Positions 15 to 16,637 of a DNA stretch of 21,634 nt are shown one piece after another. Location: positions 1-21,634 of IMG/VR virus record IMGVR_UViG_3300044825_003266; one strand, given 5' to 3'. This DNA comes from a virus. The notes under the pieces were generated by a model, which was not told the DNA's origin, did not search any database, and saw nothing but the letters and a program-made list of their open reading frames with translations. Position numbers and translations under genes: made by a program. How positions within the stretch are numbered: position 1 is the stretch's first letter; the number at the start of each line of letters is the position of its first letter.

Positions 15-356
15 ATGGCCATCCTAGTCGCCGAAGTTGGTGGCGGGTACTTCAGTCGGTATCGTGCGTATGGGCAATCTCGCCCAGACACCGCATCAAC
101 TTGTCGTAAAGCGTGCGCCCTGTTGTCGGGGGAGGTAGGTGACGTTGTTCGCTATGTTGACTTAGCTAATCCGAACGATGTCCTGACAGTCCAAATTACC
201 TACGGCAAAGACGACTTCGCAAACGGAATCGTCAACGAAAGTCGCCCTCTAGCTCAAGCTCTACTTGGGGCCGTTGTCGGGGATGAAGTTGCACTACACC
301 TAGCTGGTAGCGTATCCAAGACATTCCAAGTCGTAGAAATCAAAAGAACAGAATAA
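15..356 (+). CDS. GreA/GreB C-terminal-domain-like protein, possibly the end of a longer gene
   Basis: The frame encodes 113 residues. Residues about 45-112 resemble the FKBP-like C-terminal domain of GreA/GreB transcription elongation factors: a beta-rich start, then RPLAQALLG (77-85), VGDEV (88-92) and a closing strand ending in VVEIKR. The N-terminal coiled coil that GreA uses to reach the RNA polymerase active site is absent, so cleavage-factor activity is unlikely. The frame is open to the left edge of the window and the ATG at 15 has only a weak GGA about 11 bases upstream. It may therefore be the C-terminal domain of a larger protein that starts outside. It ends in TAATG shared with hsdM, which suggests cotranscription and a role linked to the restriction-modification locus. 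The domain call is moderately secure; the biological role is not known. Confidence 0.5.
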   Translation: MAILVAEVGGGYFSRYRAYGQSRPDTASTCRKACALLSGEVGDVVRYVDLANPNDVLTVQITYGKDDFANGIVNESRPLAQALLGAVVGDEVALHLAGSVSKTFQVVEIKRTE

Positions 357-2743: not shown

Positions 2744-3090
2744 TGACGGTGGCAAGTGCTTACCCGAACTACCGGCAGCCGAAGATGCGCTGGTTGCCAG
2801 CAGTGCCGGAACACTGGAACGAGCAACGCGCTAAGACCTTTTTTCGTGAGGTGGATGAGCGTTCGAAGACCGGACAGGAAGAACTGCTGTCAGTGTCTCA
2901 CCTGACCGGCGTTACTCCTCGCAGCCAGAAGAATGTCACGATGTTCAAGGCAGCGAGCTATGTTGGCTCCAAGCTGTGCCGCCCCGGCGACATCGTCATC
3001 AACACGCTGTGGGCGTGGATGGCGGCCCTTGGTGCCAGCAGGCACGTGGGCATCGTCAGCCCCGCCTACGGCGTGTATCCGACCTTCTGA
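2743..3090 (+). pseudogene. hsdS: Truncated type I specificity subunit (hsdS 5' remnant)
   Basis: This 115-codon frame has the normal start of an HsdS subunit. It contains the WLPAVPEHW-type N-terminal segment (residues 17-25) and the first part of target recognition domain 1, including LCRPGDIVINTLWAWMAALG (78-97) and SPAYGVY (105-111). An intact HsdS is about 400-450 residues, with two recognition domains separated by conserved helices. Here the match stops at SPAYGVY, at about base 3075-3080, and a stop codon follows three codons later. Both the central and C-terminal conserved helices and recognition domain 2 are missing, so the fragment cannot form a normal HsdM2S complex. Downstream sequence is not the rest of hsdS in another frame, which points to deletion or recombination instead of a simple frameshift. 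Remaining parts could lie elsewhere, for example at the other end of the prophage. Confidence 0.85.
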
Positions 3091-3530
3091 ACAAGGGCCA
3101 GGTCGAGGGTCTAGTCTCAGCACTTGAAGAAGCCAACGAAACTCATAAAGCACTTCTGGCACGTATCTCTGAACTCGAAGCGAAAGAGGCTGTTCAAGAT
3201 CAAGAAATGTCCAAGATCAACTATGAAAACCAGGTCATTGATGTAACCGACAGGGCGATTCTTGAACACGCGGAAATTGTCACGATTCAACGCCAAAAGG
3301 GTCCGACGCAGTACACGGAAATCAGACTCAGCAACGGACTCAAGCTACTCAAGAAGTGGGACATTCCCAGAACACTCGCCAAAGCGACTGCCCTGAAAGG
3401 AAAGTACGTCCGGACAACTGTGTGGAACAAGATCGGAAGCAAGCCGACCGACAGGGACTACTGGAAGCCCACGGAATGGTTTGAGGACATCTACGAAATC
3501 AAAGACGCCGCAACAGAGGAGTCGAAATGA
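3081..3530 (+). CDS. Coiled-coil protein of unknown function, 5' end apparently lost at the hsdS junction
   Basis: This frame becomes protein-like right at the point where hsdS stops making sense. The first segment (LLNKGQVEGLVSALEEAN...) has heptad-like spacing and charged residues typical of a coiled coil, through about base 3205. It is followed by a mixed domain of about 100 residues rich in Lys, Trp and Tyr. Upstream of base 3081 the same frame reads through hsdS DNA and is not credible. The first ATG inside the credible part is at 3207 and would give 107 residues, but it has no clear ribosome binding site. The coiled-coil part also looks genuinely coding, so I favour a gene that lost its start, or a chimera. 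It ends ATGA-overlapped with the next gene. I recognise no family. Confidence 0.45.
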   Translation, partial: DLLNKGQVEGLVSALEEANETHKALLARISELEAKEAVQDQEMSKINYENQVIDVTDRAILEHAEIVTIQRQKGPTQYTEIRLSNGLKLLKKWDIPRTLAKATALKGKYVRTTVWNKIGSKPTDRDYWKPTEWFEDIYEIKDAATEESK

Positions 3531-3919
3531 TCAATCACACGATGGTGCTCACGATCAACGGCACTCGGCGCTCTGAGAAAGCTGGCGGACTGGATGACGG
3601 TGAAGTTTCAACATTTGAAAACAAGCCCGGCGAGTACCGTGATGATCTAAACACAGTAGAAGATTTGATCGAGAACATCAACCACTCGGCATATATGCGT
3701 GGCGAGTGGATTTCATCGATGAAGCTGGATGGACGCGACATTGTTGAAGAGCATGCTGTGAAAATCTTGCAAGAGAACATGCTCAACATTGGTGAGTCTG
3801 CAATCGAGCTCTCGCAAGCCGGAATGTTTGCCGCCGCAGACTTGGAGGATCTGATTAGTTTCTTGCAATCCATCAAGGCTAAACATTTTGACGGCAACCT
3901 GGAGGACGACCATGATTAA
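3527..3919 (+). CDS. Small acidic hypothetical protein
   Basis: The 130-residue product is strongly acidic, especially at its C terminus (NLEDDHD). It has no signal peptide or membrane segment and is predicted cytoplasmic. The N-terminal 45 residues look extended or disordered. The rest appears helical, with repeated amphipathic stretches (about residues 42-60 and 78-120). The start ATG at 3527 overlaps the preceding stop as ATGA; a second ATG lies five codons further on (3542). The end overlaps the start of the next gene. Its position between a coiled-coil gene and two small genes suggests a moron-type cluster at the prophage edge. I do not recognise a family and propose no function. Confidence 0.6.
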   Translation: MINHTMVLTINGTRRSEKAGGLDDGEVSTFENKPGEYRDDLNTVEDLIENINHSAYMRGEWISSMKLDGRDIVEEHAVKILQENMLNIGESAIELSQAGMFAAADLEDLISFLQSIKAKHFDGNLEDDHD

Positions 3920-4262
3920 GCACCTGATTTCCACGCTCCTGCTACTTGGAGTAGCTGGGAGTGCATTGGCATGCAACACTGAGTACAACATCACTCTTCA
4001 GACGTTTGGCGAAGGCGTTCTAGTGGAGCTTCGATCTGGTAGCCCAGGCAACTCCCGAGTTGTTCAATCTAGAAGGAGCAACGGAGGTGCGGTCAATTTC
4101 GGCAACCTCTGTCCTGGCAACTACTTTCTTGCAATCGGCAATGGTGATTCTGTCAGCGTAACTCAAACTCGATATTTTGAATCTGACGCCGTTTACACAG
4201 GTAGCATCGTCATGCAACGCGGAAGTGGCAACGTCTCTAACAAATCTAGAAAGAACCTCTAA
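3912..4262 (+). CDS. Small secreted protein with Sec signal peptide
   Basis: From ATG 3912 the product is 116 residues. This start is chosen over one eight codons upstream because GGAGG (3901-3905) sits seven bases before it and because it exposes a clean signal peptide. That peptide has MIKH, then a hydrophobic core (LISTLLLLGVAGS), then ALA just before Cys21. The residues before Cys21 (ALA) are not a good lipobox, so signal peptidase I cleavage after Ala20 is more likely than lipidation. The mature protein of about 96 residues has two Cys (mature residue 1 and the NLCPGNY segment), which could form a periplasmic disulfide. It is rich in Gly, Ser and Asn with a beta-strand pattern. It overlaps the previous gene by eight bases. 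No family is recognised; a prophage-borne envelope protein is an inference from location only. Confidence 0.65.
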   Translation: MIKHLISTLLLLGVAGSALACNTEYNITLQTFGEGVLVELRSGSPGNSRVVQSRRSNGGAVNFGNLCPGNYFLAIGNGDSVSVTQTRYFESDAVYTGSIVMQRGSGNVSNKSRKNL

Positions 4263-4671: not shown

Positions 4672-4712
4672 AAAAAAGGCCCGACCTGTCAAATGACAAG
4701 CCGGGCTTTTTT
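4672..4712. terminator. Bidirectional rho-independent terminator between converging operons
   Basis: An A6 run (4672-4677) is followed by GCCCG (4679-4683), paired with CGGGC (4702-4706), and then T6 (4707-4712). An inner pair TGTC/GACA (4687-4690 with 4695-4698) extends the hairpin around an AAAT loop. The T run serves + strand transcripts from the small-gene cluster. The complementary A run becomes a U run for - strand transcripts leaving the lysis genes. The T run overlaps the Rz stop codon, so the end of Rz sits inside the hairpin tail. Confidence 0.9.
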
Positions 4713-5208
4713 ACGGGTGAAGAGCTGATTGTTTCTGATACCACCGCTGCACTTCAAGCAGCATGAGAGTGGTCTGTGCCGCATCTATTTCAAGCTGCTC
4801 GCAACTCATTCCTTTCGCATCTCCATCGGAAGCAAATAGAGCGTCGGTGGCGGTAACTGCAGCTCCTTGGGCAGCATCGGGAACGGCGGGCACACTGCTA
4901 CCACTGGTTGTGGTGCAGTCGCACATCCCGATAGGACGAGAAGCAGACTGACGACCAGCCAGCACCTTGGAGTTCTTCGCATAGTCATTAGAAATCTCCT
5001 GATTTATTTGAGTTTGTGATTGACGAATGTCTGCGGCACGCTGCTCTTGCTTGGCAACGACCAGCGCCACTCGCAGCTTCTCGGCGTTCCATTCCCGATT
5101 AATCCGGGACTCACCGATCTGGACTCCGCAGATGAAAACCATCAGAAGTACAAGTCCGCCCATCAGGTAATTCCAATTGGCGAAGATGAATTTGGTGAGC
5201 CAGTTCAT
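4711..5208 (-). CDS. Rz-like inner membrane spanin subunit
   Basis: This 165-residue protein fits the i-spanin (Rz) that, together with the lipoprotein Rz1, fuses inner and outer membranes in the last step of lysis. It has one N-terminal transmembrane segment (about residues 14-30) with a short cytoplasmic head. A charged helical stretch suited to a periplasmic coiled coil follows (about 32-85). The C-terminal half is Ala/Ser/Thr-rich with Cys at about 95 and 97. The strongest support is the Rz1 lipoprotein gene nested inside it in another frame. A strong GGAGGT site precedes the start, and the ATG overlaps the endolysin stop as ATGA. It is the last gene of the lysis cassette and ends at the bidirectional terminator. 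Confidence 0.85.
   Translation of the reverse strand: MNWLTKFIFANWNYLMGGLVLLMVFICGVQIGESRINREWNAEKLRVALVVAKQEQRAADIRQSQTQINQEISNDYAKNSKVLAGRQSASRPIGMCDCTTTSGSSVPAVPDAAQGAAVTATDALFASDGDAKGMSCEQLEIDAAQTTLMLLEVQRWYQKQSALHP
4806..4988 (-). CDS. Rz1-like outer membrane spanin lipoprotein, nested inside Rz
   Basis: This 60-residue frame lies wholly within the Rz gene in a different frame. It starts with basic residues and a hydrophobic stretch ending in LSGC, a good lipobox, so lipidation at Cys22 would leave a mature peptide of about 39 residues. The mature part is Pro-rich, as is typical of Rz1 (CPPFPMLP, LPPPTLYLLP). An AGGAG site sits seven bases before the ATG at 4988. In the known Rz/Rz1 systems the lipoprotein sits in the outer membrane and bridges the periplasm to Rz. 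Nested genes of this kind are easily missed because the frame is short. Confidence 0.88.
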   Translation of the reverse strand: MTMRRTPRCWLVVSLLLVLSGCATAPQPVVAVCPPFPMLPKELQLPPPTLYLLPMEMRKE

Positions 5209-5669
5209 GAAGCACCTCCATCCAGCGCTTGCAGCTTGTGCTGATTCATGAGGCCAATCACCTTACTGGCGTAGCCCGGATCAGTGGCATACCCAGCCTT
5301 GGCCAGCGCTTGTGCAAATGCCTCAGCCGTCAGACATTGGAAGCATGGTTGATAGCGCGGGTTTTGCTTTAGGAAGGCTGCGTGGTCATCAATGCTCTCT
5401 TGCCAGCTGGCGTACTTACGCCACTTGGCAGGCACCACAACCCACTGGCCACGGATGAATTCCTTGGTCTGAAGGATCAAGGTCTCCCCCCTCCAGCGGC
5501 TGTCGGCCTTGATGCCAAAGAGGTTCTTCCCCACCTTGGCCAGACCAGACTCACCCCAACCGGACTCCAACGCTGCCTGCGCAATCGTGATGCTGGCGAA
5601 TACGCCCGAGCGCTTGGCCGTTGCCTGCGCAGAGGAGCCGATCAATGCGATGAATTCAATCGGCTTCAT
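5205..5669 (-). CDS. Phage endolysin, glucosaminidase (FlgJ-like) family
   Basis: The 154-residue product resembles the glucosaminidase domain of FlgJ-like enzymes, which cleave the glycan strands of peptidoglycan. It has IAQAALESGWGES (residues 29-41) with the probable catalytic Glu35, NLFGIK (49-54), WRKY followed by ESIDDHAAFL (91-100), NPRY (103-106) and AGYATDPGYASK (125-136). The domain fills nearly the whole protein. There is no signal peptide or separate wall-binding domain, so it should depend on the holin for release. It overlaps the holin stop as ATGA and the Rz start as ATGA, forming a compact holin-endolysin-spanin cassette. Confidence 0.88.
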   Translation of the reverse strand: MKPIEFIALIGSSAQATAKRSGVFASITIAQAALESGWGESGLAKVGKNLFGIKADSRWRGETLILQTKEFIRGQWVVVPAKWRKYASWQESIDDHAAFLKQNPRYQPCFQCLTAEAFAQALAKAGYATDPGYASKVIGLMNQHKLQALDGGAS

Positions 5670-6116: not shown

Positions 6117-8411
6117 TCAGGATTGATCGGCGGTATGCACCAACGCGTTCTCGGCAACGCATGTCAGTTCGACCTGCTCAGCCCTGGGCTTGACGCTCAT
6201 GACGCGCGCCAGCTGGGACCAAGACTGCCCAACACCAAAAGCAAAATGCGTTCGCTCACGGTCAGCGCTGACCTGCGGCTCAAAACCGGGCAGCGTTTTC
6301 AGGATGACATGGGAAGCAGTTGAACCCTGCGTGACCTCAATGGCATCGGAGACCGAGCCATCCGGCTTTCGCAGAACGAGGTAGTGAACAGCACCTAACT
6401 GCCAACTCAGCGGCTCAGAACACCGCACAGATCTCGTCTGACTGTCCCAGCTCAAGACCTCTCCACTCAAGCCCCAACGAGGAATGTCGTGACTGATCGC
6501 GATCAAATCACCATAGGTTGGAATCAAACCTTCCAGCTCCGTGCGGAAGGTCACGATTCGTCGGCGATATCGATTAGCCGCCGCGATGTATTTACCCTCT
6601 CGAACGCCCTGAGCTCTATCGGTACAGCCAAACAATCTCACGCGAGCAGGCTTGACAGCTTGGGATCCAGGCAACGCCACTGTGAACTCGTCAGGCTTCC
6701 AGCTCTTGGGGTTGACGTATTCGATCGTGACCGCATCCGCTGTCGCATCGCCTGCCATCAGGTACTGAATCTTCAAGCTGTTGCGCACGATATTTCGTGC
6801 AGAAAAGAGCGCCACCGGGATGGACTTGGGTTCATCGCGAACGATGCGAACAATCCCGCCTTGCAAAAACGGCACGGCACGCCCAGTCCGGGCAATCTGC
6901 CCCAAGGCGTCCCACACCGTCTGATTCTGATCAAACACTGCATTGAAGGTATCCCCTCGAGCCGACCACACCGCATCCAACCGCGCCAAGGCTGACAGGT
7001 CCAATTGCCGGTCAGGCAGACCTGCGCCGTAGCTGGATTTGACGGCATCAGCGAAGGCCCACGCAATCGAGCGGGTGGGTTGCGGTGCAGACCACCCAGA
7101 GCTTGAACTCCAACTTGAGAGCTTGCGCGTCACCAGGCAGTTGACCAACCGTGAGGAACGCTGGGACAAGTTGTCGGTGGCGCGCATCCTAAGCGCTAGG
7201 TAGGTCAGATCAGTGGGCAAATTTGATCCCGCCAAATAGCCCTTGGCTTGCCCCCAGCGCAACTCATGACCAACCCGATTGCTGGTGTCTCGTGCATCAA
7301 GGCGCTGCAAGCGGATCTCATAACGCCCAGGTGTCACCGAATACTTGAACGATAGGCGCTGCGCGGTATTGGTTGCAGCCGAGTAGGTCTCATCTGCTAA
7401 ATGGAGCCATCCAGAAATTGCATCCCCGTCATCGTTGATGCTTCGCACCTCAACCCGCCATTGCACTGATCGGCTTTCCAATGCACCACTGTCATTGGCG
7501 TAGTAGAGGCCTCGCAACATCACCACATCGACACCGACCTGATTGATCTGTGTGCCAACCGGATTTAGGGCAAAGGGGCCAACGATGGCTCCGCTGTCGC
7601 TCACAGCAATCAATTCCTGTCCAGAGACTTCAGGGGCCGAAAGCACGTCAGGATTGAACAATGTGTTCTGGCCGCCTGGCTCGATCACTTGCGCCTGTAC
7701 CTCGGCAAACGAGCTGATCGGGCTATCGTCAATGGACAGCTCCTCAAACTGGAATTGCCCAACACCTATGACGTGCAGTTGATGGAGATACTCCTCGTTG
7801 TTCTCGTACTCTGTATAGGGCATGGTGGCCAGATCTGGGTACACCAGATGGCGGCCATAGATCACAGGCACGGGTTGCGCCAGGCGTCCATAGTTACCCC
7901 GCGCTTGTAAGGAGTACGTCGGGCTGGGGGATGTGGTGTTCGCTGATGCCGAGGGCAAGGCCTGATTTGGCAATGGCACCAGCGCATTGACGAGCACAGA
8001 GCCCGTGACTGCAATCGCAGTTGACGCCACCGCCGTGGCCAGCGTGCCTGAATACCCCATTGAGGCAGCCAGAGCGCCGCCATACGCATTTGCGACGACC
8101 AACACGGCAATCATGAGCACGGTTCTGAGCGGGTTCTTACCGCCACCTCCACCGCCTTGCGGCAGAGTGACCAAGGCCACAACGTCTCCTGCATCGATCG
8201 GCGTCACCGCCCTATGCGCCATCAGTACCGGCTGGCCGTTTTTCAGAATCAACGTGGGTTGATCGAATTCAATGCCATCACGACTCATCCACTGTGCGAT
8301 CGTGGGCGATCCAAACACATGGCTCACCTGCCGATCACTGGGCTCGAACGGATTTCGCATCCAAATGACCAGGCCAGGGCTGGGTAGGCCTGACATGCAA
8401 GCGCTTGTCAT
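6117..8411 (-). CDS. Tail tip / host specificity protein (TipJ, gpJ-like)
   Basis: From ATG 8411 the product is 764 residues. An upstream in-frame ATG at 8540 lies inside the NlpC/P60 gene. The 8411 start has a strong GGAAGGAG site and an ATGA overlap with that gene, so it is preferred. The N-terminal part ends in a Gly-rich stretch (GGGGGGK). A long hydrophobic Ala/Val-rich segment follows (about residues 93-150), as in TipJ-family tail proteins. Then come a QARGNYGRLAQPVPVIYGRH-type conserved region and beta-rich domains to the end. Proteins of this class form the tail tip baseplate and contribute to receptor recognition and DNA passage. It is shorter than lambda gpJ (about 1130 residues) and seems to lack the extended fibronectin-type C terminus. 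The gene is the last of the tail operon and is followed by a terminator. Confidence 0.88.
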   Translation of the reverse strand: MTSACMSGLPSPGLVIWMRNPFEPSDRQVSHVFGSPTIAQWMSRDGIEFDQPTLILKNGQPVLMAHRAVTPIDAGDVVALVTLPQGGGGGGKNPLRTVLMIAVLVVANAYGGALAASMGYSGTLATAVASTAIAVTGSVLVNALVPLPNQALPSASANTTSPSPTYSLQARGNYGRLAQPVPVIYGRHLVYPDLATMPYTEYENNEEYLHQLHVIGVGQFQFEELSIDDSPISSFAEVQAQVIEPGGQNTLFNPDVLSAPEVSGQELIAVSDSGAIVGPFALNPVGTQINQVGVDVVMLRGLYYANDSGALESRSVQWRVEVRSINDDGDAISGWLHLADETYSAATNTAQRLSFKYSVTPGRYEIRLQRLDARDTSNRVGHELRWGQAKGYLAGSNLPTDLTYLALRMRATDNLSQRSSRLVNCLVTRKLSSWSSSSGWSAPQPTRSIAWAFADAVKSSYGAGLPDRQLDLSALARLDAVWSARGDTFNAVFDQNQTVWDALGQIARTGRAVPFLQGGIVRIVRDEPKSIPVALFSARNIVRNSLKIQYLMAGDATADAVTIEYVNPKSWKPDEFTVALPGSQAVKPARVRLFGCTDRAQGVREGKYIAAANRYRRRIVTFRTELEGLIPTYGDLIAISHDIPRWGLSGEVLSWDSQTRSVRCSEPLSWQLGAVHYLVLRKPDGSVSDAIEVTQGSTASHVILKTLPGFEPQVSADRERTHFAFGVGQSWSQLARVMSVKPRAEQVELTCVAENALVHTADQS

Positions 8412-8830
8412 GGCGACTCCTTCCATCGGTAATACCCCTCCACCTGCCAGCCGTGGCTGGCAAGAGAAATCAGTTGCTGAAACACCACCCCAGCTTGCTG
8501 GGCACAGTGCAATACACCGCCACCGTCGGCATCGACCCACACGCCCACATGCACGGGGTGTCGCGACTGACGCATCAAAACCGCATCACCCTGCTGAGGC
8601 ACATCGACCGCCTCCCAACGTTGCCTCTCCGGGTGATTTTTGAACGTATGAAGGACCGTCCGCAGATTCAGTGCATCCACCGGGATCACCGGCAAGTCAC
8701 GACTGAAGTGCGCTTTCTGGACCCATAGAAAAAGGCCCCAGCAGTCAAATGACTCGGGGCCTCTCTCACCTGCAATCCACGGACGACCGATGTACTGGAT
8801 CACCCAACTGGGCGAGTCTTCTTCTGTCAT
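8408..8830 (-). CDS. NlpC/P60 family tail-associated peptidase (gpK-like)
   Basis: The 140-residue product carries the Cys-His-His signature of NlpC/P60 peptidoglycan peptidases. Cys30 lies in ESFDCWG, His94 in HPVHVGVW and His108 in VLHC. In lambdoid phages the gpK homologue sits at the tail tip and is thought to cut stem peptides during DNA entry. The domain fills the protein, with no signal peptide. It starts on an ATGA overlap with the DUF1833-like gene and ends on an ATGA overlap with the tail-tip gene. The order DUF1833-like, NlpC/P60, TipJ is the standard distal-tail arrangement, which supports the assignment. Confidence 0.92.
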   Translation of the reverse strand: MTEEDSPSWVIQYIGRPWIAGERGPESFDCWGLFLWVQKAHFSRDLPVIPVDALNLRTVLHTFKNHPERQRWEAVDVPQQGDAVLMRQSRHPVHVGVWVDADGGGVLHCAQQAGVVFQQLISLASHGWQVEGYYRWKESP

Positions 8831-9369
8831 CGTGCTAATCCAGGAAACTCGGTTGCGGTGTACAAGCGTGACGGAAAAGTCTTGTTGCCGATGTCAGCCA
8901 TGCGTGCCTTGGCCGTGACCCGCTGCACGTCGGCCTCCACCTCGGTGATCACCAACGTGATGGGCGGATCCATCTGTGGGCCACTCAAATCGTTGGAAAG
9001 GTACGGACGGTAAGTCACTTCAATGGGTGATTCCGAAACCGATGCCTCGTCCAAGTGCTTCACGATCTCCCGGGTGACGTTGTCTAGAGTGATCGCAATT
9101 TCTGGAATAGGAGCGATATCTACCGGCGGCAGATCCAACTCAAATCCCATGGCCACAAACTGAACCTGCTGGCCCGCGTTGATTGGCGCTGACGCCTCAA
9201 GCCTTGCAAGCAAGTCTTGCTGATCACGCACCACCCGGATCGCCGTCGAGTTGCCTGCATCATCTTTAAAGTCCGGATGTCGGATCTCTAGGGTATGCAG
9301 GATCACCACATCACAGGGGGCGCTCGCATAGGCTTCCCGTAGCGCCTCAGAAAGTGCGGCATCAGGCAT
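8827..9369 (-). CDS. DUF1833-like minor tail protein
   Basis: The 180-residue product begins ALSEALREAYASAP, a start that I associate with the DUF1833 phage tail family. Strands such as VVILHTLEIRHP and VQFVAMGFELDLP follow, and the C terminus has a beta-rich stretch ending in FPGLAR. Members sit just before the NlpC/P60 gene and are thought to form part of the tail tip, comparable in place to lambda gpL. Its start overlaps the end of the radical SAM gene by eight bases (ATGCCTGA on the - strand). The enzyme cassette is therefore translationally joined to the canonical tail genes. The family name is from memory; the tail role is well supported by context. Confidence 0.8.
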   Translation of the reverse strand: MPDAALSEALREAYASAPCDVVILHTLEIRHPDFKDDAGNSTAIRVVRDQQDLLARLEASAPINAGQQVQFVAMGFELDLPPVDIAPIPEIAITLDNVTREIVKHLDEASVSESPIEVTYRPYLSNDLSGPQMDPPITLVITEVEADVQRVTAKARMADIGNKTFPSRLYTATEFPGLAR

Positions 9370-10783
9370 GTGTCACCCGTACAGGAAATGGTTTGATGGC
9401 TCGCTCCAGCGGCGAAATCGTACTCATGTCACCATTGCTCTCCACAAAGCCGAGATGAATGACATCCACGTCTTTGACAGCATCACGTCGAATGGCGTCA
9501 CCCTCAATACGGGTAAGAATCAAGCCTTGTGTCTGGTAGTAAAGCGCTGCAGCAAGCACCGCCAGGTTGTGACTAAAAGAGTTATCGCACGCGGCCTCCC
9601 AGCAACCATCCTCGAGAAAAAGACATGCGCCTTTACAAAGCTGAGCCACCGGGCAACGGGGGCATTCGCTTCGGGTGCTGAAGTGGTATGCCGTATTGAG
9701 GCTGATGCTTTCAAACTGATCGACATGACCAATTTTGTGATTCGTGGATGCACTCATGTTCTGGCAAGTCATCACATTGCCTTTCATGTCCACCGCAATC
9801 GAATCGTCCCGATCCATACCGCACTTTTGACCTAAAGACGCTAGTGGGCGTGACTGCGCCTGTGAGCGCAAGAACTCATCCACTTTATCGCGCATGGTTC
9901 CAACTGCCATCCCTGAACCAGTGACCAGCTCCCAGAACATTTGGTGCAAATAGCGGTTGTGATCATTTCCATGGAGAGCCAAAGACAGACCGCTCTGGTC
10001 GTAGGGAAGCATCACCTCCTCAGTGGCAAGCACCACGGCCTGGACGGGTAAATCCAACTTTTCAGCAAAGTACAGACGTACCGCCTTGAGCGATTGGTTG
10101 TGGCGATGCAAGACCGTATTGAAGCTCATGCGATCGATTGACATGCGCCGAGTTACCCAGCGTTTGATCTGGGCCAGACTGTCGGGATCGTTCAGTGGGT
10201 CAGGGCCACGGTAAGACTGTGCAGGACCGTCATGCGACAAACCGATACCAACATCGAGCGCCTCGACCCAAGCGAGCTTTTCGTCATCGAAGAGGGAGCC
10301 ATTAGTGACGATGGACAACTGCGCATTCGGGTAGCAAACCTTGACAGCCTCACCCAGAGGTTTGAGAAGCTTCCAATAGACAAAGGGTTCACCACCCCAA
10401 AATTCAATCTTGACGCCAGCGCCCCGACCATCGTCGCCACCTGCAAACCAGCCTTCGAGCTGTTGCATGAATGGGGCGACGTCGTCTGGGTGTCCATCGA
10501 TGTCATGGGGCTGATGCGCTTGAGAGCAATACTGACAGGCATAGTTGCATTTGAGTCCCAATTGCAACTTAAGGTGTTTGATGGCCTTGGACTTCCCAGC
10601 TGGATTGCTAGGGTGATGCAGATGCCAGAACGGTGGCCACCCCATATCCGCCTGCCTTGGGAATACCTGAGGTAGTGGCAAAGGCTCATCGTTGTCAGCC
10701 CAGACAAGACTTGAGTCCGCCGGGTCATAGAGCGCTTGTCGCACAAAGCCGTTCTGGCCGTTGAGAGTGAAGGTGAACTTCAT
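9362..10783 (-). CDS. Radical SAM/SPASM peptide-maturase-like enzyme
   Basis: From ATG 10783 the product is 473 residues. An in-frame ATG 14 codons earlier lies inside the preceding gene. The 10783 start has GAGGAA upstream and an ATGA overlap. The radical SAM motif CNYACQYC (Cys79, 83, 86; CX3CX2C) would hold the [4Fe-4S] cluster that cleaves S-adenosylmethionine. GGEP follows at 130-133. The C-terminal half shows a textbook SPASM pattern: Cys321-X13-Gly-X4-Cys340, then Cys374-X2-Cys377-X5-Cys383-X3-Cys387, then Cys394 or Cys399. This suits two auxiliary iron-sulfur clusters. Enzymes of this class install thioether or other crosslinks, or oxidise residues, in ribosomal peptides or proteins (sactipeptide, ranthipeptide and sulfatase-maturase relatives). 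The N-terminal 70 residues are not a recognisable RiPP recognition element. By operon, the likely substrate is the Cys/Asn-rich fibre encoded upstream; that is inference. Confidence 0.92.
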   Translation of the reverse strand: MKFTFTLNGQNGFVRQALYDPADSSLVWADNDEPLPLPQVFPRQADMGWPPFWHLHHPSNPAGKSKAIKHLKLQLGLKCNYACQYCSQAHQPHDIDGHPDDVAPFMQQLEGWFAGGDDGRGAGVKIEFWGGEPFVYWKLLKPLGEAVKVCYPNAQLSIVTNGSLFDDEKLAWVEALDVGIGLSHDGPAQSYRGPDPLNDPDSLAQIKRWVTRRMSIDRMSFNTVLHRHNQSLKAVRLYFAEKLDLPVQAVVLATEEVMLPYDQSGLSLALHGNDHNRYLHQMFWELVTGSGMAVGTMRDKVDEFLRSQAQSRPLASLGQKCGMDRDDSIAVDMKGNVMTCQNMSASTNHKIGHVDQFESISLNTAYHFSTRSECPRCPVAQLCKGACLFLEDGCWEAACDNSFSHNLAVLAAALYYQTQGLILTRIEGDAIRRDAVKDVDVIHLGFVESNGDMSTISPLERAIKPFPVRVTHA

Positions 10784-10989
10784 GGGTTGAGTTCCTCGAA
10801 CGCGATGGGATAGGCCTCGCGACACACCTTGGCCAAATCGGCACTGGGCAGCGTCTTGAGATTGAAGATGTGACGGCCAGAAACTTTGCCGTCCGGATTG
10901 ACGACCAAAACGGTCATCACCAGATTCGATTCATCGACCTGGACCACTTCGACGGCGTAGCCTTGACGGACTGAAAGATCGAGGCTCAT
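10780..10989 (-). CDS. Small 69-residue protein of the fibre-modification cassette
   Basis: This short gene is held between the second oxygenase and the radical SAM gene by ATGA overlaps on both sides, so it is very likely real. A GGAG site lies eight bases before its ATG. The sequence starts with alternating hydrophobic residues (YAVEVVQVDESNLVMTVLVV), then a turn (NPDGKVSG) and a strand. It closes with a helix-like stretch (SADLAKVCREAYPIAFEEL). That beta-rich then helical order is unlike the winged-helix of PqqD-type peptide chaperones. It could still serve as an adaptor presenting substrate to the enzyme. There is one Cys. I recognise no family; any adaptor role is inference from size and place. 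Confidence 0.75.
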   Translation of the reverse strand: MSLDLSVRQGYAVEVVQVDESNLVMTVLVVNPDGKVSGRHIFNLKTLPSADLAKVCREAYPIAFEELNP

Positions 10990-11714
10990 TGAATGGACTC
11001 CATTGGGTTGTTTGGGGATTGGGCTTTGGCGTGAGCACGGATTTGCTCGGCAGACCAGGTCAGATCACCACCTCGATCATCTCGGTGCGTGAAGCGCACA
11101 TTGGTGACGATGGCGACCTTGTCGCTCTCGGGATCGAACAATGGAAACGTGGAGTGCTCCAGATAGCCCGGGAAAATGAATAACGCCCCTTGGCGGGGCG
11201 TTTGTGCGAAGAGCTTGTTTTCATGTCGGAGCATCCAGTTTGCTTGCACCGGCCTGGGATCGTGGAAACACAATGCACCGGGCAGGCCAACGGCATCTCG
11301 CCCTTCACCTGATCCAAGATGTACTCGGGGGTAATAGGTGACCACCAACTGATTTCCAACATGCCTGTGGGGAATGGCCCATTTGCCAAGTCCCCGCTGA
11401 CGATTCACGAAGGTGTTGTAGGTGATGGCCAACTCAGAAGGATCGAGTGATGGATACGCTTGACGAACATAGGTGGCGACTCGCTGTTCGACTGCTTCAA
11501 GCAAGCGCAACAGTGCTTGACTGGGTTGGTCGCGCATCATTGAGACGGTGTCGGCTCGATGGGCCATCTTGGCTGAGGTTCGTGTGTGACGCTCGTAGAA
11601 AAATTCAGCCTCCTGTGCCAAGGTCTCCCGTACATCCTCCAACTCTGAGAGTTGGTCAACCAGCACATGACTGGGCCAGAGGCTAAGAAGCTGATATGAA
11701 TTACTTGCCATCAT
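10986..11714 (-). CDS. Fe(II)/2-oxoglutarate-dependent oxygenase-like protein
   Basis: The 242-residue product has a C-terminal half resembling the double-stranded beta-helix oxygenases related to prolyl hydroxylases and the putative 2OG-Fe(II) oxygenase families. PHRHVGNQLVVTYYP (115-129) supplies His116/His118. GALFIFPGYLEHSTFP (176-191) is a typical strand-turn segment carrying His187. VAIVTNVRF (200-208) supplies Arg208, in the place of the 2-oxoglutarate anchor. The N-terminal 100 residues are mostly helical. Such enzymes hydroxylate amino acid side chains or small molecules using O2 and 2-oxoglutarate. It starts on an ATGATG that overlaps the preceding stop; either Met could be used. 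Neighbours point to a protein or peptide substrate in the fibre cassette. The fold call is fairly strong; the metal-ligand assignment is by eye. Confidence 0.75.
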   Translation of the reverse strand: MMASNSYQLLSLWPSHVLVDQLSELEDVRETLAQEAEFFYERHTRTSAKMAHRADTVSMMRDQPSQALLRLLEAVEQRVATYVRQAYPSLDPSELAITYNTFVNRQRGLGKWAIPHRHVGNQLVVTYYPRVHLGSGEGRDAVGLPGALCFHDPRPVQANWMLRHENKLFAQTPRQGALFIFPGYLEHSTFPLFDPESDKVAIVTNVRFTHRDDRGGDLTWSAEQIRAHAKAQSPNNPMESIQ

Positions 11715-12505
11715 TGAGTCAAATCTCCATCAAGAATCATCTGGATTGGGTGTTTGCAACCGTAGAAGCGGTTCGGTCGATACGTCCTGGTTAGATGGTC
11801 AAACTCGATCCATGGCCAGACGCTGAAATGCACACTGCAACGACCGCCCAAACAGGAATTCCGATTGACCAAGGTATGTTCGTAACCAGAGCAGTTCATC
11901 CAAAGGCACTCACCCGGGTTAAAACACAGGTCATCCTGCCCATCAATCGACAGGACCACGCCCGGCGACACAGCAAGGCAAATGTCCATTCTGAGTTCTT
12001 CAAAGATCGAGGTGTCTCGGTGCGGATACACCAGAGGCTTGTCGCGACGATTGGGTGGCACAAGCACTGTCAGCCGACCCGACCCAACGGTCAGCTTGAA
12101 CTGATCGAGCATCGTCCCAATGAACTGGGATCGCCCGACCTCCGAGCGATGCACAAACGCCAAATGGTCGGCACCGCTGTACCGACATGGATCCTTGTCC
12201 AGGTAGGGATCCATAGCCTTAACTGGATGCCCCGTATGAGCCAACGACAAGTTGCGAAAACGTCCCGGACTGGCTGCACTGATTTGGGATTCCCAGATCA
12301 ACGATTCGAAGCGATCAAATGCCTCTGCAAATGCGTGCTCTAGATTGGATGGCACCTGCACACCAGGCACGTCCCTGATCGCCACGAGACGCTCAAGCTC
12401 CGGATTCGAAACAGCCTCGATGGCTTTCTCAAAATCTGTCGCTTTCCGCAGGTACGCCGCAACCGTCATGTGGTTCGGGATGCTGTCCGCATGCACCGCC
12501 CACAT
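11711..12505 (-). CDS. Aspartyl/asparaginyl beta-hydroxylase-like protein
   Basis: From ATG 12505 the product is 264 residues. A GTG one codon upstream is less likely, because GGAGG is best spaced (six bases) for the ATG. The C-terminal part fits the AspH-type Fe(II)/2-oxoglutarate fold: YPHRD (160-164, His162 and Asp164), a strand RMDICLAV (172-179), then FNPGECLWMNCSGYEHTLVN (196-215) with His210, and Arg222 in GGRCSVHFSVWPW. The spacing of about 48 residues between the two His, with an Arg 12 residues later, is close to that of AspH enzymes. Members hydroxylate the beta carbon of Asp or Asn in proteins. The neighbouring fibre ends in a tract where Asn alternates with Cys, a natural candidate substrate. 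The N-terminal 110 residues are unassigned. It overlaps both neighbouring genes. Confidence 0.75.
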   Translation of the reverse strand: MWAVHADSIPNHMTVAAYLRKATDFEKAIEAVSNPELERLVAIRDVPGVQVPSNLEHAFAEAFDRFESLIWESQISAASPGRFRNLSLAHTGHPVKAMDPYLDKDPCRYSGADHLAFVHRSEVGRSQFIGTMLDQFKLTVGSGRLTVLVPPNRRDKPLVYPHRDTSIFEELRMDICLAVSPGVVLSIDGQDDLCFNPGECLWMNCSGYEHTLVNRNSCLGGRCSVHFSVWPWIEFDHLTRTYRPNRFYGCKHPIQMILDGDLTQ

Positions 12506-13308
12506 CACACCACCTCCACAGTAGCACCGACCTTATGGCTGAAATATTTGAACCCAACCTTAATAAGGCCCTGATCCTGCGGCTCCAGTCCCAAAGCAAT
12601 CCATTTGAAGTTTGCGATACCGCCAACAATCGGCACCTTGGTCTTAGGCAGAAAACCTGCCTCACACTCCAGATACAGAACACCACTGCGCGTTTCAATC
12701 GCAGGCATGTCATTGGTTTCATAGACGGGTTGAATCAACCGCACTGTGCATGTAACGGCTTCGCCTGCAGTACAAGCATTCGGCACATCCAACTCCAGAG
12801 AAGGCAGTACAGCGTTGTAGAGCGACACCCTGGATCGCACTTCGAGAAACTCCTCAAATCCCTCCGGTGGCATTGATTGCGGTGCGTACACAAGGACCGC
12901 CACTTCTTCGATTGGGCTGTCTTCAAAGGGAACGAAAAATAGCACCGTACGCGGATGCAACGGACGCCCCAGTAGGAATGGGTTTTTGTGCAGATTCGTC
13001 TGCGGGAACACCGAATGCATATGCCCCAGGTCTTCCCAGCCAAAGCGGGCCTCCAATGCCCAATTGGTATGGATTCCCCAATGCTTGCCCAGATCGATAT
13101 GCTGCTTGATGGCTGCTGGATCGAACACGAAGGGGCGTGAGCCATATTCCTTTTCATTTGTCTCTGGGTTGATTCGCCAAGGAGTCACCGTAATCGTCTG
13201 AGCTTGCTCATCCCGCTCAACGCGGTAGCTCACTGGAAACGCCCCAAACGATTCGGCGGGGGAAGGAATATTGAACAGGCGACCGCCCACAGTAGTTGAA
13301 TTCGTCAT
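12505..13308 (-). CDS. Unknown 267-residue fibre-associated protein, Ig-like C terminus
   Basis: The gene begins 11 bases after the Cys/Asn-rich fibre, using a GAGGAG site that overlaps the fibre stop. It ends overlapping the hydroxylase-like gene. The N-terminal part (about residues 1-160) is Pro/aromatic-rich, with His-containing stretches (DLGHMHSVFP, NLHKNPFLLGRPLHP), and resembles no enzyme I know. The C-terminal 100 residues look like an immunoglobulin-type beta sandwich: LPSLELDVPNACTAGEAVTC, a central SGVLYLECEAGFLPKTKVP and the final FKYFSHKVGATVEVV. It may be a structural partner or cap of the fibre, or a scaffold for modification. It lacks a signal peptide, as expected for a virion protein. 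Function unknown. Confidence 0.7.
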   Translation of the reverse strand: MTNSTTVGGRLFNIPSPAESFGAFPVSYRVERDEQAQTITVTPWRINPETNEKEYGSRPFVFDPAAIKQHIDLGKHWGIHTNWALEARFGWEDLGHMHSVFPQTNLHKNPFLLGRPLHPRTVLFFVPFEDSPIEEVAVLVYAPQSMPPEGFEEFLEVRSRVSLYNAVLPSLELDVPNACTAGEAVTCTVRLIQPVYETNDMPAIETRSGVLYLECEAGFLPKTKVPIVGGIANFKWIALGLEPQDQGLIKVGFKYFSHKVGATVEVV

Positions 13309-13319
13309 CTCTCAACTCC

Positions 13320-13916
13320 TCAGCAGTCGGTGCTGCAGTTGCAATTGCAGTTGCAATTGCAATTGGTGCGGCAGTTGAAAGCGGTGGAGCCACAGTTGCA
13401 GTTCGAATAGCTGCCGCAGTTGCAGTTGCAATTGCAGGCTCGATACCAGCGGTGGTACTCAGCGCCACCGATTTCATCTTGCGCCAGGTAGTAACCGTCG
13501 TAGTTCAATCCCACGGAAGGAACAGCGTAATTGGCATAGCTTGTTCCACCGACGCCGTCGTACTGCCCGCTGTTAGCGCAGTAGTTGAAGCCAAGGCCCC
13601 ATGTCCACCAGTTCACATTTGGAGGAACCCAGTTGGCGTTGCTTGCGCAATTGCCATTGGGAAGATAGCCATTGCAGTTGCTGGCCCGATCGTCGTAGTA
13701 CTGACTTGAACGCCCCATCTCACCGATGTCTTGGCCATCTCCCATCTTGTAGCCCGTGTTGCGAGCATCGTCACTCGTCACACTGCTTTTGAAGAGCGCT
13801 CCGTTGGACATGGTGAGGTTTCCCGTCATGGTCCCACCAGCCTTGTCCAACTTGCCATTGATCTCAGTCTGCAAGGCATCATCCAACCCCGCTTTGGGGA
13901 TGCGTGTAATCGCCAT
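13320..13916 (-). CDS. Short tail fibre with Cys/Asn-repeat C terminus (candidate modified substrate)
   Basis: The 198-residue protein has three parts. Residues 1-50 are typical of phage tail fibres (ITRIPKAGLDDALQTEINGK, then KAGGTMTGNLTM, a motif common in fibre and collar proteins). Residues 51-160 are Asn/Gly/Tyr/Trp-rich with NC pairs at 80-81 and 89-90. Residues 161-198 are a Cys/Asn tract: CNCNCNC, SNCNC, FNC, and NCNCNCNCNC, ending STDC. In those 38 residues there are 13 Cys and 11 Asn, and every Asn is followed by Cys. An AGGAG site precedes the ATG. The gene follows the large fibre by 12 bases and precedes the 267-residue protein and modifying enzymes. The fibre head looks structural and the tail looks like a RiPP core peptide. 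A metallothionein-like metal site or disulfide stack is the main alternative. Confidence 0.85.
   Translation of the reverse strand: MAITRIPKAGLDDALQTEINGKLDKAGGTMTGNLTMSNGALFKSSVTSDDARNTGYKMGDGQDIGEMGRSSQYYDDRASNCNGYLPNGNCASNANWVPPNVNWWTWGLGFNYCANSGQYDGVGGTSYANYAVPSVGLNYDGYYLAQDEIGGAEYHRWYRACNCNCNCGSYSNCNCGSTAFNCRTNCNCNCNCNCSTDC
13323..13436 (-). repeat. AAY-TGC hexanucleotide repeats encoding Asn-Cys dipeptides
   Basis: Three arrays lie in the 3' end of the short fibre gene: bases 13436-13416 (CNCNCNC), 13403-13392 (NCNC) and 13364-13335 (five NC units). The unit is AAT or AAC followed by TGC. Of the 13 Cys codons in the tract 12 are TGC and one is TGT, while AAT and AAC alternate. The mix of Asn codons shows the array is not a perfect recent duplication. 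Even so, the six-base unit could gain or lose copies by slippage without disturbing the frame. Confidence 0.9.
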
Positions 13917-13928
13917 GATTTCTCCTAG

Positions 13929-16637
13929 TTAGATGTAACGCACCACAATCCGCGCGCTGGCGGCTGGTGCCGATGTGAATCGCAAAGTAGCCCCGGAATT
14001 GACGAGGACGTAGGCATCCAGTGAGTCCTGAACCACGTAATTGACCGTCACGATCAATTTGTGGACGCTGGATGCGGCTGTGCTCAGACTGAAATCCGTA
14101 GACGAACCGTTGCCTGTAAAGACCTGCGGAGCGACGTTGGATCCGCCTGCCGCAGCGGCATATCCCTGCGCTTGGCTCATGTAGCTCTGGGCCTGAGTAG
14201 CCGAGGCCGCTGAAGCCGTCGCAGAGTTCGCTGAGGCGGTAGCACTACCAGCCGAAGCCGTTGCCGAGTTGGCTGCACTAGTTGCTTGCTGACTGGCCGT
14301 CGCCGCATTGGCGGCAATGGACTGCGCGTAGTACTTGGCCGAATACTCTGTCGCTCCAGACACAGGCCCCGACGTTTTGTTCGCCCACTCTTCGGCGGCG
14401 GCTGCGCCAGACTGCGCCTCCTTGTCCAGGTAACGCACGCTGATCACCACCCCGTTGGCTGGGGCTGAGGTGAAACGCAATGTCGTGGTAGCGGGTGTGA
14501 TGTACGCGTCTAGGGGGGCTTGTGGCACCCCAGCCACCGTCACCATGAGTGCACCCGGATATCCGACAGGTCGACTGATTGTGAAATCAGTTTTGACGCC
14601 ATCGCCCGTGAACACATCGGCTGGAATGACCGTATTGGCAGTCACCGCTGCTGCAGATCCTGCGGCCTGTCCTGCCCAGTACTTGGCCGAGTAACCACTT
14701 CCGTCAACCGTTCCAGTGGTCTTTTGCGCCCAATCCGCAGCCAAGGTTGCCTGGGTTTGAGACGCAGTCAGAGAATTAGCTGCGCTGGACGCACTGCCAG
14801 AGGCAGCAGTGGCCGAATTGGCCGCCGCCGAAGCGCTGGTCGAAGCCTCTGTGGCTTTGGCACTGGCGGTCGTTGCCGATGCAGATGCAGCACTGGCTGA
14901 GCTCGATGCGCTGGCAGCACTGATGCTGGCATTGCTGGCCGAGGTGGCTGCAGCGCTGGCACTGTTGCCTGCATCCGAAGCCTTGGTACTGGCCGTTGTT
15001 GCAGAACCTGCCGCTGCCATGGCAGACGATGCCGCGTTTGAAGCCGAACTTGCTGCCGCTGCGGCTTGTGTGGCTGCTGTACTTGCGGACGATGCTGCGT
15101 TGGTAGCTGACGAAGCTGCATCTGACGACTTGCTCGCAGCCGTAGTGGCTGAAGCCCCTGCCGCCGTTGCACTCGTTGCAGCGTCCGTCGCCTTCTGAGA
15201 GGCCGCAGCTGCCGAAGCAGAAATCGACTGCGCGTAGTATTTCGCCGAGTATTCGCTGCCACTGACTGGAGCCGACGTCTTGGTTGCCCAATCCTGAGCC
15301 ACAGAGGCACTGCTGGCTGCGCTTGTTGCAGAGCCTGCTGCCGCTGATGCGCTGTTGCCTGCATCCGTGGCTTTACCGGATGCCGTAGTGGCAGATGTTG
15401 AAGCCCCGCTTGCACTGGTTGCCGCACTGGTGGCCGATGCACTGGCATCGGTGGCTTTGGTACTGGCAGTCGTTGCAGAAGATGCAGCGTTGGTTGCCGA
15501 GGTCGCAGCGTCAGTCGCTTTGGTCGTAGCTATGGTCGCTGAACCAGCTGCCGCAGTGGCGCTCCCCGATGCAGCTGATGCAGAACCTGCAGCAGACGTG
15601 GCACTCGCTGCAGAAGCCTGCGCATGGTATTTCGCCGAATACTCTGTCGATCCCGAGACCACACCACTTGTCTTGGTGGCCCATTCTTGAGCTGCAGCCG
15701 CACCAGACTGTGACTCTTTGTCCAGATAGCGGACGCTAATCGCCACGCCGTTGGTAGGAGCCGCGACAAAGCGCAGGGTAGTTGTGCCCTGAACTGAATA
15801 CGCATCGATCGGGCCCTGAGGGACACCGGCCACAGTCACCATCAACGCACCGGGGTACGCCACCGGATGAGAGAGTGTGAAATCTGTCTTGACGCCATCA
15901 CCAGTGAACACATCTGCCGGGATCACCGTATTGGTGGTGACCACGGCTGCAGAGTTCGCCGCCTGACCTGCCCAATACTTCGCTGAATATCCAGCACCAT
16001 CAACCGTAGTCGCTGTCTTTTGCGCCCAATCGGATGCCAAGCTGGCTTGCGCCTGCGCAGAGGTCAGCGCGGTTTGCGCGTCCGCTGCTTTATTGGTGGC
16101 CGTGGTTGCAGAGGTAGAAGCGGAGCTGGCACTTGCGGCTGCATCGCTTGCCTTTTGTGAGGCGGTGCTCGCTGAGGTTGCTGCAGAAGTCGCTGAACCA
16201 GCCGCATTGGTGGCGCTCGTCGCAGCGTTGGTGGCAGACGCTGCTGCTGCCGTCTTACTGCTACTGGCATCACTGGCCTTGGTGCTGGCTGTCGTCGCCG
16301 ACGTGGCTGCCGCAGTTGCGGAGTTGGCCGCGCCGGTCGCGGAGTCGCTGGCTGCCGTTGCTTTGGTGCTGGCCGTCGCCGCAGCGCTTGCTGCATTGCT
16401 GGCCGATTGCGCCGCACTGGTGGCCTGCTGAGTTGCAGTGGCGACCTGATTGGTCAGATCTTGCCGGGAAGCGTCAAGCTGGGTCTGCACTCCATGAATG
16501 ACGTTGGCCACACTTTTGACCTGACCGCCTTGCGTGGTGACGGTTGTCTGATCATCCCCGTGGACGATCTGATGGAGCAAGCCTGCATCCCCCTCGATCG
16601 TTCCCACAGCTTGATCGAGCCGGGTCTTGAGGGTCAT
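13929..16637 (-). CDS. Large modular Ala/Ser/Thr-rich tail fibre protein
   Basis: The 902-residue protein is a long tail fibre of the lambda Stf/side-fibre type. After a short N-terminal region (residues 1-60) it consists of Ala/Ser/Thr-rich heptad-like repeats (such as SAxxASTKATDAxxSA), expected to form a trimeric coiled rod. Three copies of a beta-rich module occur at about residues 236-306, 667-738 and 833-902. The first two share VFTGDGVKTDFT...YPGALMVTVAGVPQ, and the last is diverged and ends the protein. Five spacers of the form DWAxKTxxxVxGxxYSAKYxA separate the rods. An AAGGAAA site precedes the ATG. Codon-level Ala bias makes spurious long frames on the other strand. The fibre presumably carries or positions the short Cys/Asn-rich fibre encoded next; that link is inference. 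Confidence 0.9.
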   Translation of the reverse strand: MTLKTRLDQAVGTIEGDAGLLHQIVHGDDQTTVTTQGGQVKSVANVIHGVQTQLDASRQDLTNQVATATQQATSAAQSASNAASAAATASTKATAASDSATGAANSATAAATSATTASTKASDASSSKTAAAASATNAATSATNAAGSATSAATSASTASQKASDAAASASSASTSATTATNKAADAQTALTSAQAQASLASDWAQKTATTVDGAGYSAKYWAGQAANSAAVVTTNTVIPADVFTGDGVKTDFTLSHPVAYPGALMVTVAGVPQGPIDAYSVQGTTTLRFVAAPTNGVAISVRYLDKESQSGAAAAQEWATKTSGVVSGSTEYSAKYHAQASAASATSAAGSASAASGSATAAAGSATIATTKATDAATSATNAASSATTASTKATDASASATSAATSASGASTSATTASGKATDAGNSASAAAGSATSAASSASVAQDWATKTSAPVSGSEYSAKYYAQSISASAAAASQKATDAATSATAAGASATTAASKSSDAASSATNAASSASTAATQAAAAASSASNAASSAMAAAGSATTASTKASDAGNSASAAATSASNASISAASASSSASAASASATTASAKATEASTSASAAANSATAASGSASSAANSLTASQTQATLAADWAQKTTGTVDGSGYSAKYWAGQAAGSAAAVTANTVIPADVFTGDGVKTDFTISRPVGYPGALMVTVAGVPQAPLDAYITPATTTLRFTSAPANGVVISVRYLDKEAQSGAAAAEEWANKTSGPVSGATEYSAKYYAQSIAANAATASQQATSAANSATASAGSATASANSATASAASATQAQSYMSQAQGYAAAAGGSNVAPQVFTGNGSSTDFSLSTAASSVHKLIVTVNYVVQDSLDAYVLVNSGATLRFTSAPAASARIVVRYI
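13932..14140 (-). repeat. Fibre beta module, copy 3 (diverged, C-terminal)
   Basis: This is the last of three related modules in the large fibre (residues about 833-902). It keeps VFTGNG, a DFSLS strand, a TV-type strand, DAYV and TLRFTSAP, and ends in VVRYI at the C terminus. It has diverged more than the other two copies. It may form the fibre tip or the joint to the next fibre protein. Confidence 0.75.
14425..14637 (-). repeat. Fibre beta module, copy 2
   Basis: This module covers residues about 667-738 of the large fibre. It reads VIPADVFTGDGVKTDFT, YPGALMVTVAGVPQ, DAY, TTTLRF and ISVRYLDKE. It is highly similar to copy 1, which suggests internal duplication of a module plus its adjoining Ala/Ser rod. 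Confidence 0.85.
15718..15930 (-). repeat. Fibre beta module, copy 1
   Basis: This module covers residues about 236-306 of the large fibre and has the same motif order as copy 2 (VFTGDGVKTDFT, YPGALMVTVAGVPQ, RYLDKE). Both copies are preceded by a DWAQKT spacer with YSAKYWAGQAA and followed by an EWAxKT spacer. The duplicated unit therefore includes the flanking spacers. Confidence 0.85.

Follow-up and report, generated by a model that had tools for sequence, protein, structure and literature searches.

Why should a run of phage tail genes hold a radical S-adenosylmethionine (rSAM)/SPASM enzyme and two 2-oxoglutarate (2OG)/Fe(II) oxygenases, and on what would these enzymes act? The question is raised by the viral record IMGVR_UViG_3300044825_003266 (IMG/VR), the whole 21,634-base stretch of which was analysed (hereafter, the window). 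The window covers the half of a siphophage-type prophage that encodes its tail and lysis functions, together with adjoining type I restriction-modification genes; in it, a cassette of six minus-strand genes (13916-9362) lies between a gene for a 902-amino-acid (aa) fibre and a DUF1833 tail gene. A sequence-only reading of this DNA had proposed that the cassette modifies the tip of a short tail fibre in the manner of ribosomally synthesized and post-translationally modified peptides (RiPPs). A RiPP-like maturation cassette for the fibre tip is the best explanation of the locus, and in our judgement a probable one. The Cys/Asn tip of the short fibre is very likely the substrate of the rSAM/SPASM enzyme, as that reading had supposed; strong support comes from an association that holds in both directions across phages, and across unrelated fibre bodies. 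All six genes are present on the minus strand with the sizes originally described:

13320..13916, minus strand: short tail fibre of 198 aa, the proposed substrate; fibres 45-98% identical to it lie beside rSAM genes in other phages, and it has a weak phrog tail-fibre match.
13323..13439, minus strand: Cys/Asn tip of this fibre (residues 160-198, ACNCNCNCGSYSNCNCGSTAFNCRTNCNCNCNCNCSTDC), a C-terminal module kept on 170 different fibres, which represent 8 body clusters.
12505..13308, minus strand: Ig-like protein (family F0) of 267 aa, a probable fibre partner or escort, from its recurrence among loci and an Ig-type predicted fold.
11711..12508, minus strand: AspH-like 2OG/Fe(II) oxygenase (family F4) of 265 aa, accessory, with invariant HxD...H...R residues and an AlphaFold2 model.
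10986..11714, minus strand: second 2OG/Fe(II) oxygenase (family F1) of 242 aa, accessory, PF13759-like, matching phrog_81 (E 7.5e-15), with invariant PHxH, DP and H.
10780..10989, minus strand: 69-aa protein (family F3), present at 15/132 loci, mainly those of the close rSAM clade.
9362..10783, minus strand: rSAM/SPASM enzyme of 473 aa, the proposed tip maturase, with rSAM and SPASM Cys motifs and matches to TIGR04085 and phrog_1802 (E 3.8e-54).

The linkage of tip and enzyme was followed in two directions; the locus counts include close relatives and are not independent, and clustering of the rSAMs at 70% identity reduces 132 linked loci to 44 clusters. In direction 1, IMG/VR was scanned for DNA able to encode NCNCNCNC, a selection blind to rSAM genes, and rSAM relatives in the resulting loci were detected with our own hidden Markov model. 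The 116 new loci carry the array in frame at a protein C terminus (89), internally (10), or out of frame (17), and an rSAM relative is present at 71/89, 3/10, and 0/17 of these, respectively. Where a C-terminal array is followed by at least 4 kb of sequence, an rSAM gene is always found on the same strand (51/51); in pattern-chosen loci it typically lies 9 bp to 5.4 kb downstream of the tip. In direction 2, 61 new loci were chosen by an rSAM alignment scan only; at 51 of them the rSAM gene is preceded, on its own strand, by a strict Cys/Asn array. Of the remaining ten, eight have less than 2 kb of sequence upstream, and the two apparent exceptions (L185 and L199) carry short Cys/Asn tips (ACNCAGGACDCG and FINCRNCNC). 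All 53 rSAM-chosen loci with enough upstream sequence thus encode a Cys/Asn tip on a fibre, strict at 51 loci and short at two; SPASM homologues that regularly occur without such a fibre, which the sequence-only reading had named as evidence against itself, were looked for and are not the rule at phage loci.

The rSAM is thus a near-obligate partner of the tip, and the pairing recurs at 36-48% rSAM identity. Eleven loci have the fibre followed by the rSAM with no gene between, and 6/44 rSAM clusters have no recognised other family in this interval, leaving the fibre as the sole conserved neighbour on that side. Searches by tblastn against annotated phages gave no match for the fibre and none for the AspH-like protein, and related phages were reached by rSAM search. 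These include the cultured Achromobacter phages JWF and 2-1, which have rSAMs 36-38% identical to that of the window and fibres carrying NCNCDCNCNCSC and NCNCDCNCSC; no AspH-like gene adjoins the fibre gene of JWF. In bacterial genomes, the array is present at 47/59 rSAM loci with room for it.

Some loci reached in these scans depart from this layout, those of bacterial genomes without the array among them. L275 encodes a related fibre, in a reading frame without the tip; in L322, a decayed prophage, the major tail open reading frame is joined to the last part of the Ig-like gene (7919-8839), the region from tape measure to fibre having apparently been deleted; and L293, L304, L316, L319-L321, L329, and L330 are partial matches or other contexts. 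L323 (YcaO neighbour) and L271 (HlyD-family neighbour and apparent ATP-binding cassette exporter) look like ordinary bacterial RiPP loci outside phages, and their rSAMs are possible relatives in bacterial RiPP clusters. The genome of Thalassobacter stenotrophicus CECT 5294 holds three separate copies of the rSAM-tip locus (L286, L302, and L312), and several other Rhodobacteraceae have similar loci with a conserved gene layout.

The tip itself behaves as a module. At 199 loci there are 170 distinct fibre proteins; with the tip removed and Cys masked, they form 8 body clusters between which no similarity is detectable. The array comprises 3 to 11 units, the residue preceding Cys is most often Asn (77%), then Ala and Asp, and in 137 arrays the end lies at most four residues from the C terminus. 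Codon usage within the array is mixed (TGC 616/TGT 291; AAC 445/AAT 256), and codon differences among close relatives are 285 synonymous vs. 48 otherwise (pairwise counts, which are not independent). Conservation of the frame together with synonymous codon change shows that selection acts on the protein. The array DNA is a weak tandem repeat of 6/12/24 bp, and local repeat slippage may help to make arrays, although it leaves their retention unexplained.

Eleven fibres, those of phages JWF and 2-1 among them, continue from the array directly into a Hint domain, the first Cys of which closes the array or comes right after it. For the JWF fibre (P0001), the match to PF05203 (47.5 bits, cut-off 32.1) starts at residue 308, the array end. 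Hint domains self-cleave at their first Cys; the array would thereby be left as the new C terminus, or would bear any moiety transferred to it. Two further arrangements of the array were observed. Proteins of 67-79 aa that are dissimilar to the usual fibres and end in CNCNCNCNC plus a few residues are encoded at L030, L036, L068, and L076; three of these loci have 2-4 rSAM genes, and there is none within the stretch covered at L076. At L191, L194, L195, and L198, one rSAM is common to three tandem mini-fibres (92-115 aa), each with its own NC array at the end.

In the rSAM/SPASM enzyme, the rSAM motif CX3CX2C (C80/C84/C87) and a seven-Cys SPASM pattern (C322, C341, C375, C378, C384, C388, and C400) are both invariant in nine aligned sequences down to 36% identity. 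The enzyme passes the SPASM family TIGR04085 (33.1 bits, cut-off 27), and its match to PF04055 (E 5.8e-6, 27.0 bits) lies slightly under the cut-off of 29.5. The best-scoring named families are maturases of Cys peptides or thioethers (nif11, PapB, and QhpD-type), all below cut-off. Identity as a nif11 peptide maturase (TIGR04064, 63 bits vs. a cut-off of 518.7) or as the PapB ranthipeptide maturase (NF047865, 58.4 bits vs. 340) was rejected; the QhpD-type family TIGR03906 gives 49.9 bits (cut-off 453), and a sulfatase-maturase identity is ruled out by curated family cut-offs. The best PDB matches are 8vpo and CteB, with the YydG structure among weaker ones.

By the mechanism that we propose, the substrate of the rSAM/SPASM enzyme would be the Asn-Cys array at the C terminus of the fibre, and the likeliest reaction would join the sulphur of Cys to carbons of Asn (or Asp/Ala) residues close by. 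A flexible tail would thereby become a cross-linked tip stable to protease and redox. We favour thioether chemistry because the fixed residue of the array is Cys and the nearest named families (nif11, PapB, QhpD-type, and SCIFF) act on Cys-rich peptides or make thioethers; we hold to it tentatively, at a little under even likelihood. PapB tolerates Cys-Xn-Asp linkages with n = 0-6 (PMC9413430). The AspH-like and second 2OG oxygenases of the window phage would then be the probable hydroxylases of tip Asn residues, tip hydroxylation being in itself an evenly balanced proposition. AspH hydroxylates Asp/Asn within Cys-closed rings and accepts a thioether ring (PMC6817910); an order of rSAM first and oxygenase second would be consistent with this. 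A probable role of the Ig-like protein is to bind the end of the fibre, as partner or escort, and the finished tip, at the far end of an adsorption fibre, would likely serve in receptor contact or in fibre stability.

The Ig-like family F0 is the commonest gene between fibre and rSAM (81/132 loci; 33/44 rSAM clusters); its members have a conserved C-terminal domain, and the predicted structure matches intimin and other Ig domains, with weak E-values and as a local match only. The AspH-like protein has no Pfam family at E<=1, the AspH domain included. Its identity is nevertheless upheld by residues H163, D165, H211, and R223, invariant in the alignment, and by the predicted fold: the AlphaFold2 model (predicted local distance difference test, pLDDT, 79.5) matches 2OG hydroxylases, including 7v4m (E 5.3e-7) and human AspH (5jqy, E 4.6e-6). 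The F1 oxygenase falls below the cut-off of PF13759 (2OG-FeII_Oxy_5; E 1.2e-4, 22.8 bits, cut-off 27), which is passed by family F2 of other loci (27.7 bits). For the 69-aa F3 protein, searches of family libraries gave no match. At least four kinds of 2OG-type oxygenase occur between fibre and rSAM, in 17/44 clusters; AspH-like proteins are found in 5/44 and a second rSAM in 7/44. Desaturase-like proteins occur in 3/44 clusters, two per locus, with HxxxxH and HxxHH motifs and a match to the DesA family (E 2.4e-11). Such di-iron protein pairs lie inside the fibre-tip cassette at L107, L121, L129, and L175, and phage 'desaturase' genes labelled elsewhere as lipid genes may be peptide-modifying.

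Several points weigh against the maturation of a fibre tip by this cassette. The placing of the fibre in the virion is drawn from gene context, and no leader peptide or recognition element was identified for the fibre substrate. The window rSAM scores far under the cut-off of every named NCBIfam maturase family, and its chemistry is therefore not readable from family. No recognised 2OG-type gene lies between fibre and rSAM in 27/44 rSAM clusters, and many phages that lack both tip and rSAM have AspH-like homologues, so the presence of an AspH-like gene alone says little. These last two findings rule out the oxygenases as part of the core of the system, a correction to the sequence-only reading. 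Given a near-constant rSAM vs. variable accessories, the rSAM is the core and the other enzymes would tailor; the oxygenases are interchangeable accessories.

The main rival for tip function is that the array is chiefly a metal-binding needle, in which inward Cys residues of a trimeric tip bind a row of metal ions or clusters and the rSAM assists or tunes. Strict XCXC alternation (77% Asn before Cys) suits one face of a strand, and there is an analogy with fibres that have HxH iron sites, such as T4 gp37, where HxH motifs bind iron in the tip. Metal binding alone, however, does not explain an obligate SPASM enzyme, and to our knowledge HxH fibres need no enzyme of this type. HxH iron-site fibres are likewise discussed for an Alteromonas phage (PMC11705849). 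We regard a mainly metal-binding array as unlikely; metal binding is compatible with modification of the tip.

Epimerisation is the main rival for the chemistry: the rSAM would epimerise or otherwise alter single residues (D-Asn, D-Cys), to yield a helix of alternating D and L residues, as in proteusins. The strict alternation of two residues fits this, as does the existence of peptide epimerases among rSAMs, the weaker PDB match to YydG being one. By score, however, the closest named families are Cys-directed or thioether maturases, and no residue of the array is as constant as Cys; single-residue alteration is a distinctly improbable account. It is very improbable that the target of the enzymes lies elsewhere, in the Ig-like protein, a different tail protein, or a host molecule, and that the tip is a mere neighbour. 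The Ig-like protein is indeed the second most constant neighbour (33/44 clusters), yet the tip is kept at the 11 loci where the rSAM directly follows the fibre and the Ig-like gene is missing, and it is kept when the fibre body changes completely. Finally, a simple DNA repeat that happens to coincide with common phage auxiliary genes has practically no likelihood: weak repetition in the array DNA and the frequency of rSAM and 2OG genes in marine phages (PMC7029224, PMC5332604) speak for it, but coincidence is refuted by the counts for tips (51/51) vs. out-of-frame arrays (0/17), by recurrence at 36-48% rSAM identity, and by synonymous codon turnover in the array.

Maturation of the fibre tip by the rSAM/SPASM enzyme can be set beside known systems. 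It resembles those of PapB (ranthipeptides), SCIFF/CteB, and the nif11 maturases in enzyme architecture, in an adjoining substrate gene, and in a Cys-rich repetitive target. It differs in that a virion fibre of 65 to over 1000 aa would be modified at its C-terminal tip, and that no short precursor peptide, exporter, or leader peptidase was found. One mark of RiPPs, a gene-encoded target adjoining its modifying enzyme, is seen at all testable loci (51/51 and 53/53). Others, namely a short precursor with a leader, and a protease or exporter, are lacking: only tail and oxidative-enzyme genes lie between fibre and rSAM, and no exporter was seen in the window. QhpD is a SPASM enzyme that modifies Cys with acidic residues in a functional protein (quinohemoprotein amine dehydrogenase) rather than in a peptide antibiotic; the fibre system is alike in having a protein as its target, although the QhpD substrate is an enzyme subunit and here it would be a phage adhesin. 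NCBIfam also pairs a 2OG oxygenase with an rSAM/SPASM maturase (FlmC and FlmE/OhkG); the F7 oxygenase matches FlmC (E 1.6e-11, 44.6 bits, cut-off 240) and one rSAM matches FlmE/OhkG (E 2e-9, 36.7 bits, cut-off 500). The AspH-like protein shares with AspH a predicted 2OG fold and the HxD...H...R residues; it differs in having no tetratricopeptide repeat domain and no Pfam match, and the known AspH substrate is the epidermal growth factor-like domain. Tips of the T4 gp37 type are alike in being distal and in alternating potential ligand residues, but here the residue is Cys rather than His, with dedicated enzymes alongside. SPASM-dependent maturation of a virion adhesin tip would thus be RiPP-like in logic, without the usual marks of RiPPs.

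The surroundings of the cassette are those of a tail module. Upstream, tail genes on the minus strand encode a minor tail protein (phrog_290), a tail assembly chaperone, a tape measure protein, a virion structural protein (phrog_384), and the 902-aa fibre; downstream, the DUF1833 minor tail protein is followed by an NlpC/P60 protein and a J-like central fibre. The two direct neighbours are:

13929..16637, minus strand: 902-aa Ala/Ser-rich fibre shaft, directly upstream of the cassette, matching PF03906 and tail-fibre phrogs.
8827..9369, minus strand: DUF1833 minor tail protein, directly downstream of the cassette, matching PF08875 (E 1.6e-43) and phrog_396.

Stop and start codons overlap by 4 bp at each junction from the Ig-like gene through the rSAM gene, and the rSAM gene overlaps the next tail gene by 8 bp. 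Translational coupling, which had been claimed for the whole run, therefore holds for all of its genes except the fibre, which is separated from the Ig-like gene by an 11-bp gap that contains a GGAG site. Rfam and tRNA scans of the window gave no match. Elsewhere in the window, a lysis module on the minus strand (4711-5669) comprises an endolysin (5669-5205), an Rz-like protein (5208-4711), and an apparently nested Rz1-like lipoprotein frame (4988-4806). Beside this end of the prophage, type I hsdM is followed by an apparently interrupted hsdS in two partial frames (356-3530, plus strand). Between the restriction genes and the lysis module lies a possible moron gene (3888-4262, plus strand) for a small protein with a signal-peptide-like start and without a family match.

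In the literature searched, phage rSAM genes appear only as auxiliary metabolic genes or in unexplained cassettes beside tail fibres (PMC7029224, PMC5332604). A full-text search of the open-licence literature, with preprints outside its scope, found no paper mentioning a Cys/Asn array in phages. The sequence-only reading likewise knew of no described phage system of this kind, and the proposed modification of a fibre tip by a phage-carried radical enzyme is, within that literature, apparently new. We consider it somewhat better than an even chance that the loci represent an undescribed large class of phage virion maturation, in which an Asn-Cys tip module moved between unrelated fibres is built by a dedicated rSAM, tailored by combinatorial 2OG oxygenases, second rSAMs, and desaturase-like di-iron proteins, and sometimes unmasked by a self-cleaving Hint domain. 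The system is widespread, with at least 577 confirmed viral rSAM relatives and further examples in prophages of named bacterial isolates.

If this is true, phages chemically tailor their adhesins with enzyme classes that make peptide antibiotics. A function would then be available for at least some of the many viral genes for rSAMs, 2OG oxygenases, and AspH-like and desaturase-like proteins now classed as auxiliary metabolic genes; the rSAM cassettes next to tail fibres, and one viral contig that has 12 rSAM genes, are possibly among the cases explained (PMC7029224, PMC5332604). The tips would also offer enzymology a set of repeat-rich, leader-less substrates, and would pose a testable question on the part played by a modified tip in adsorption.

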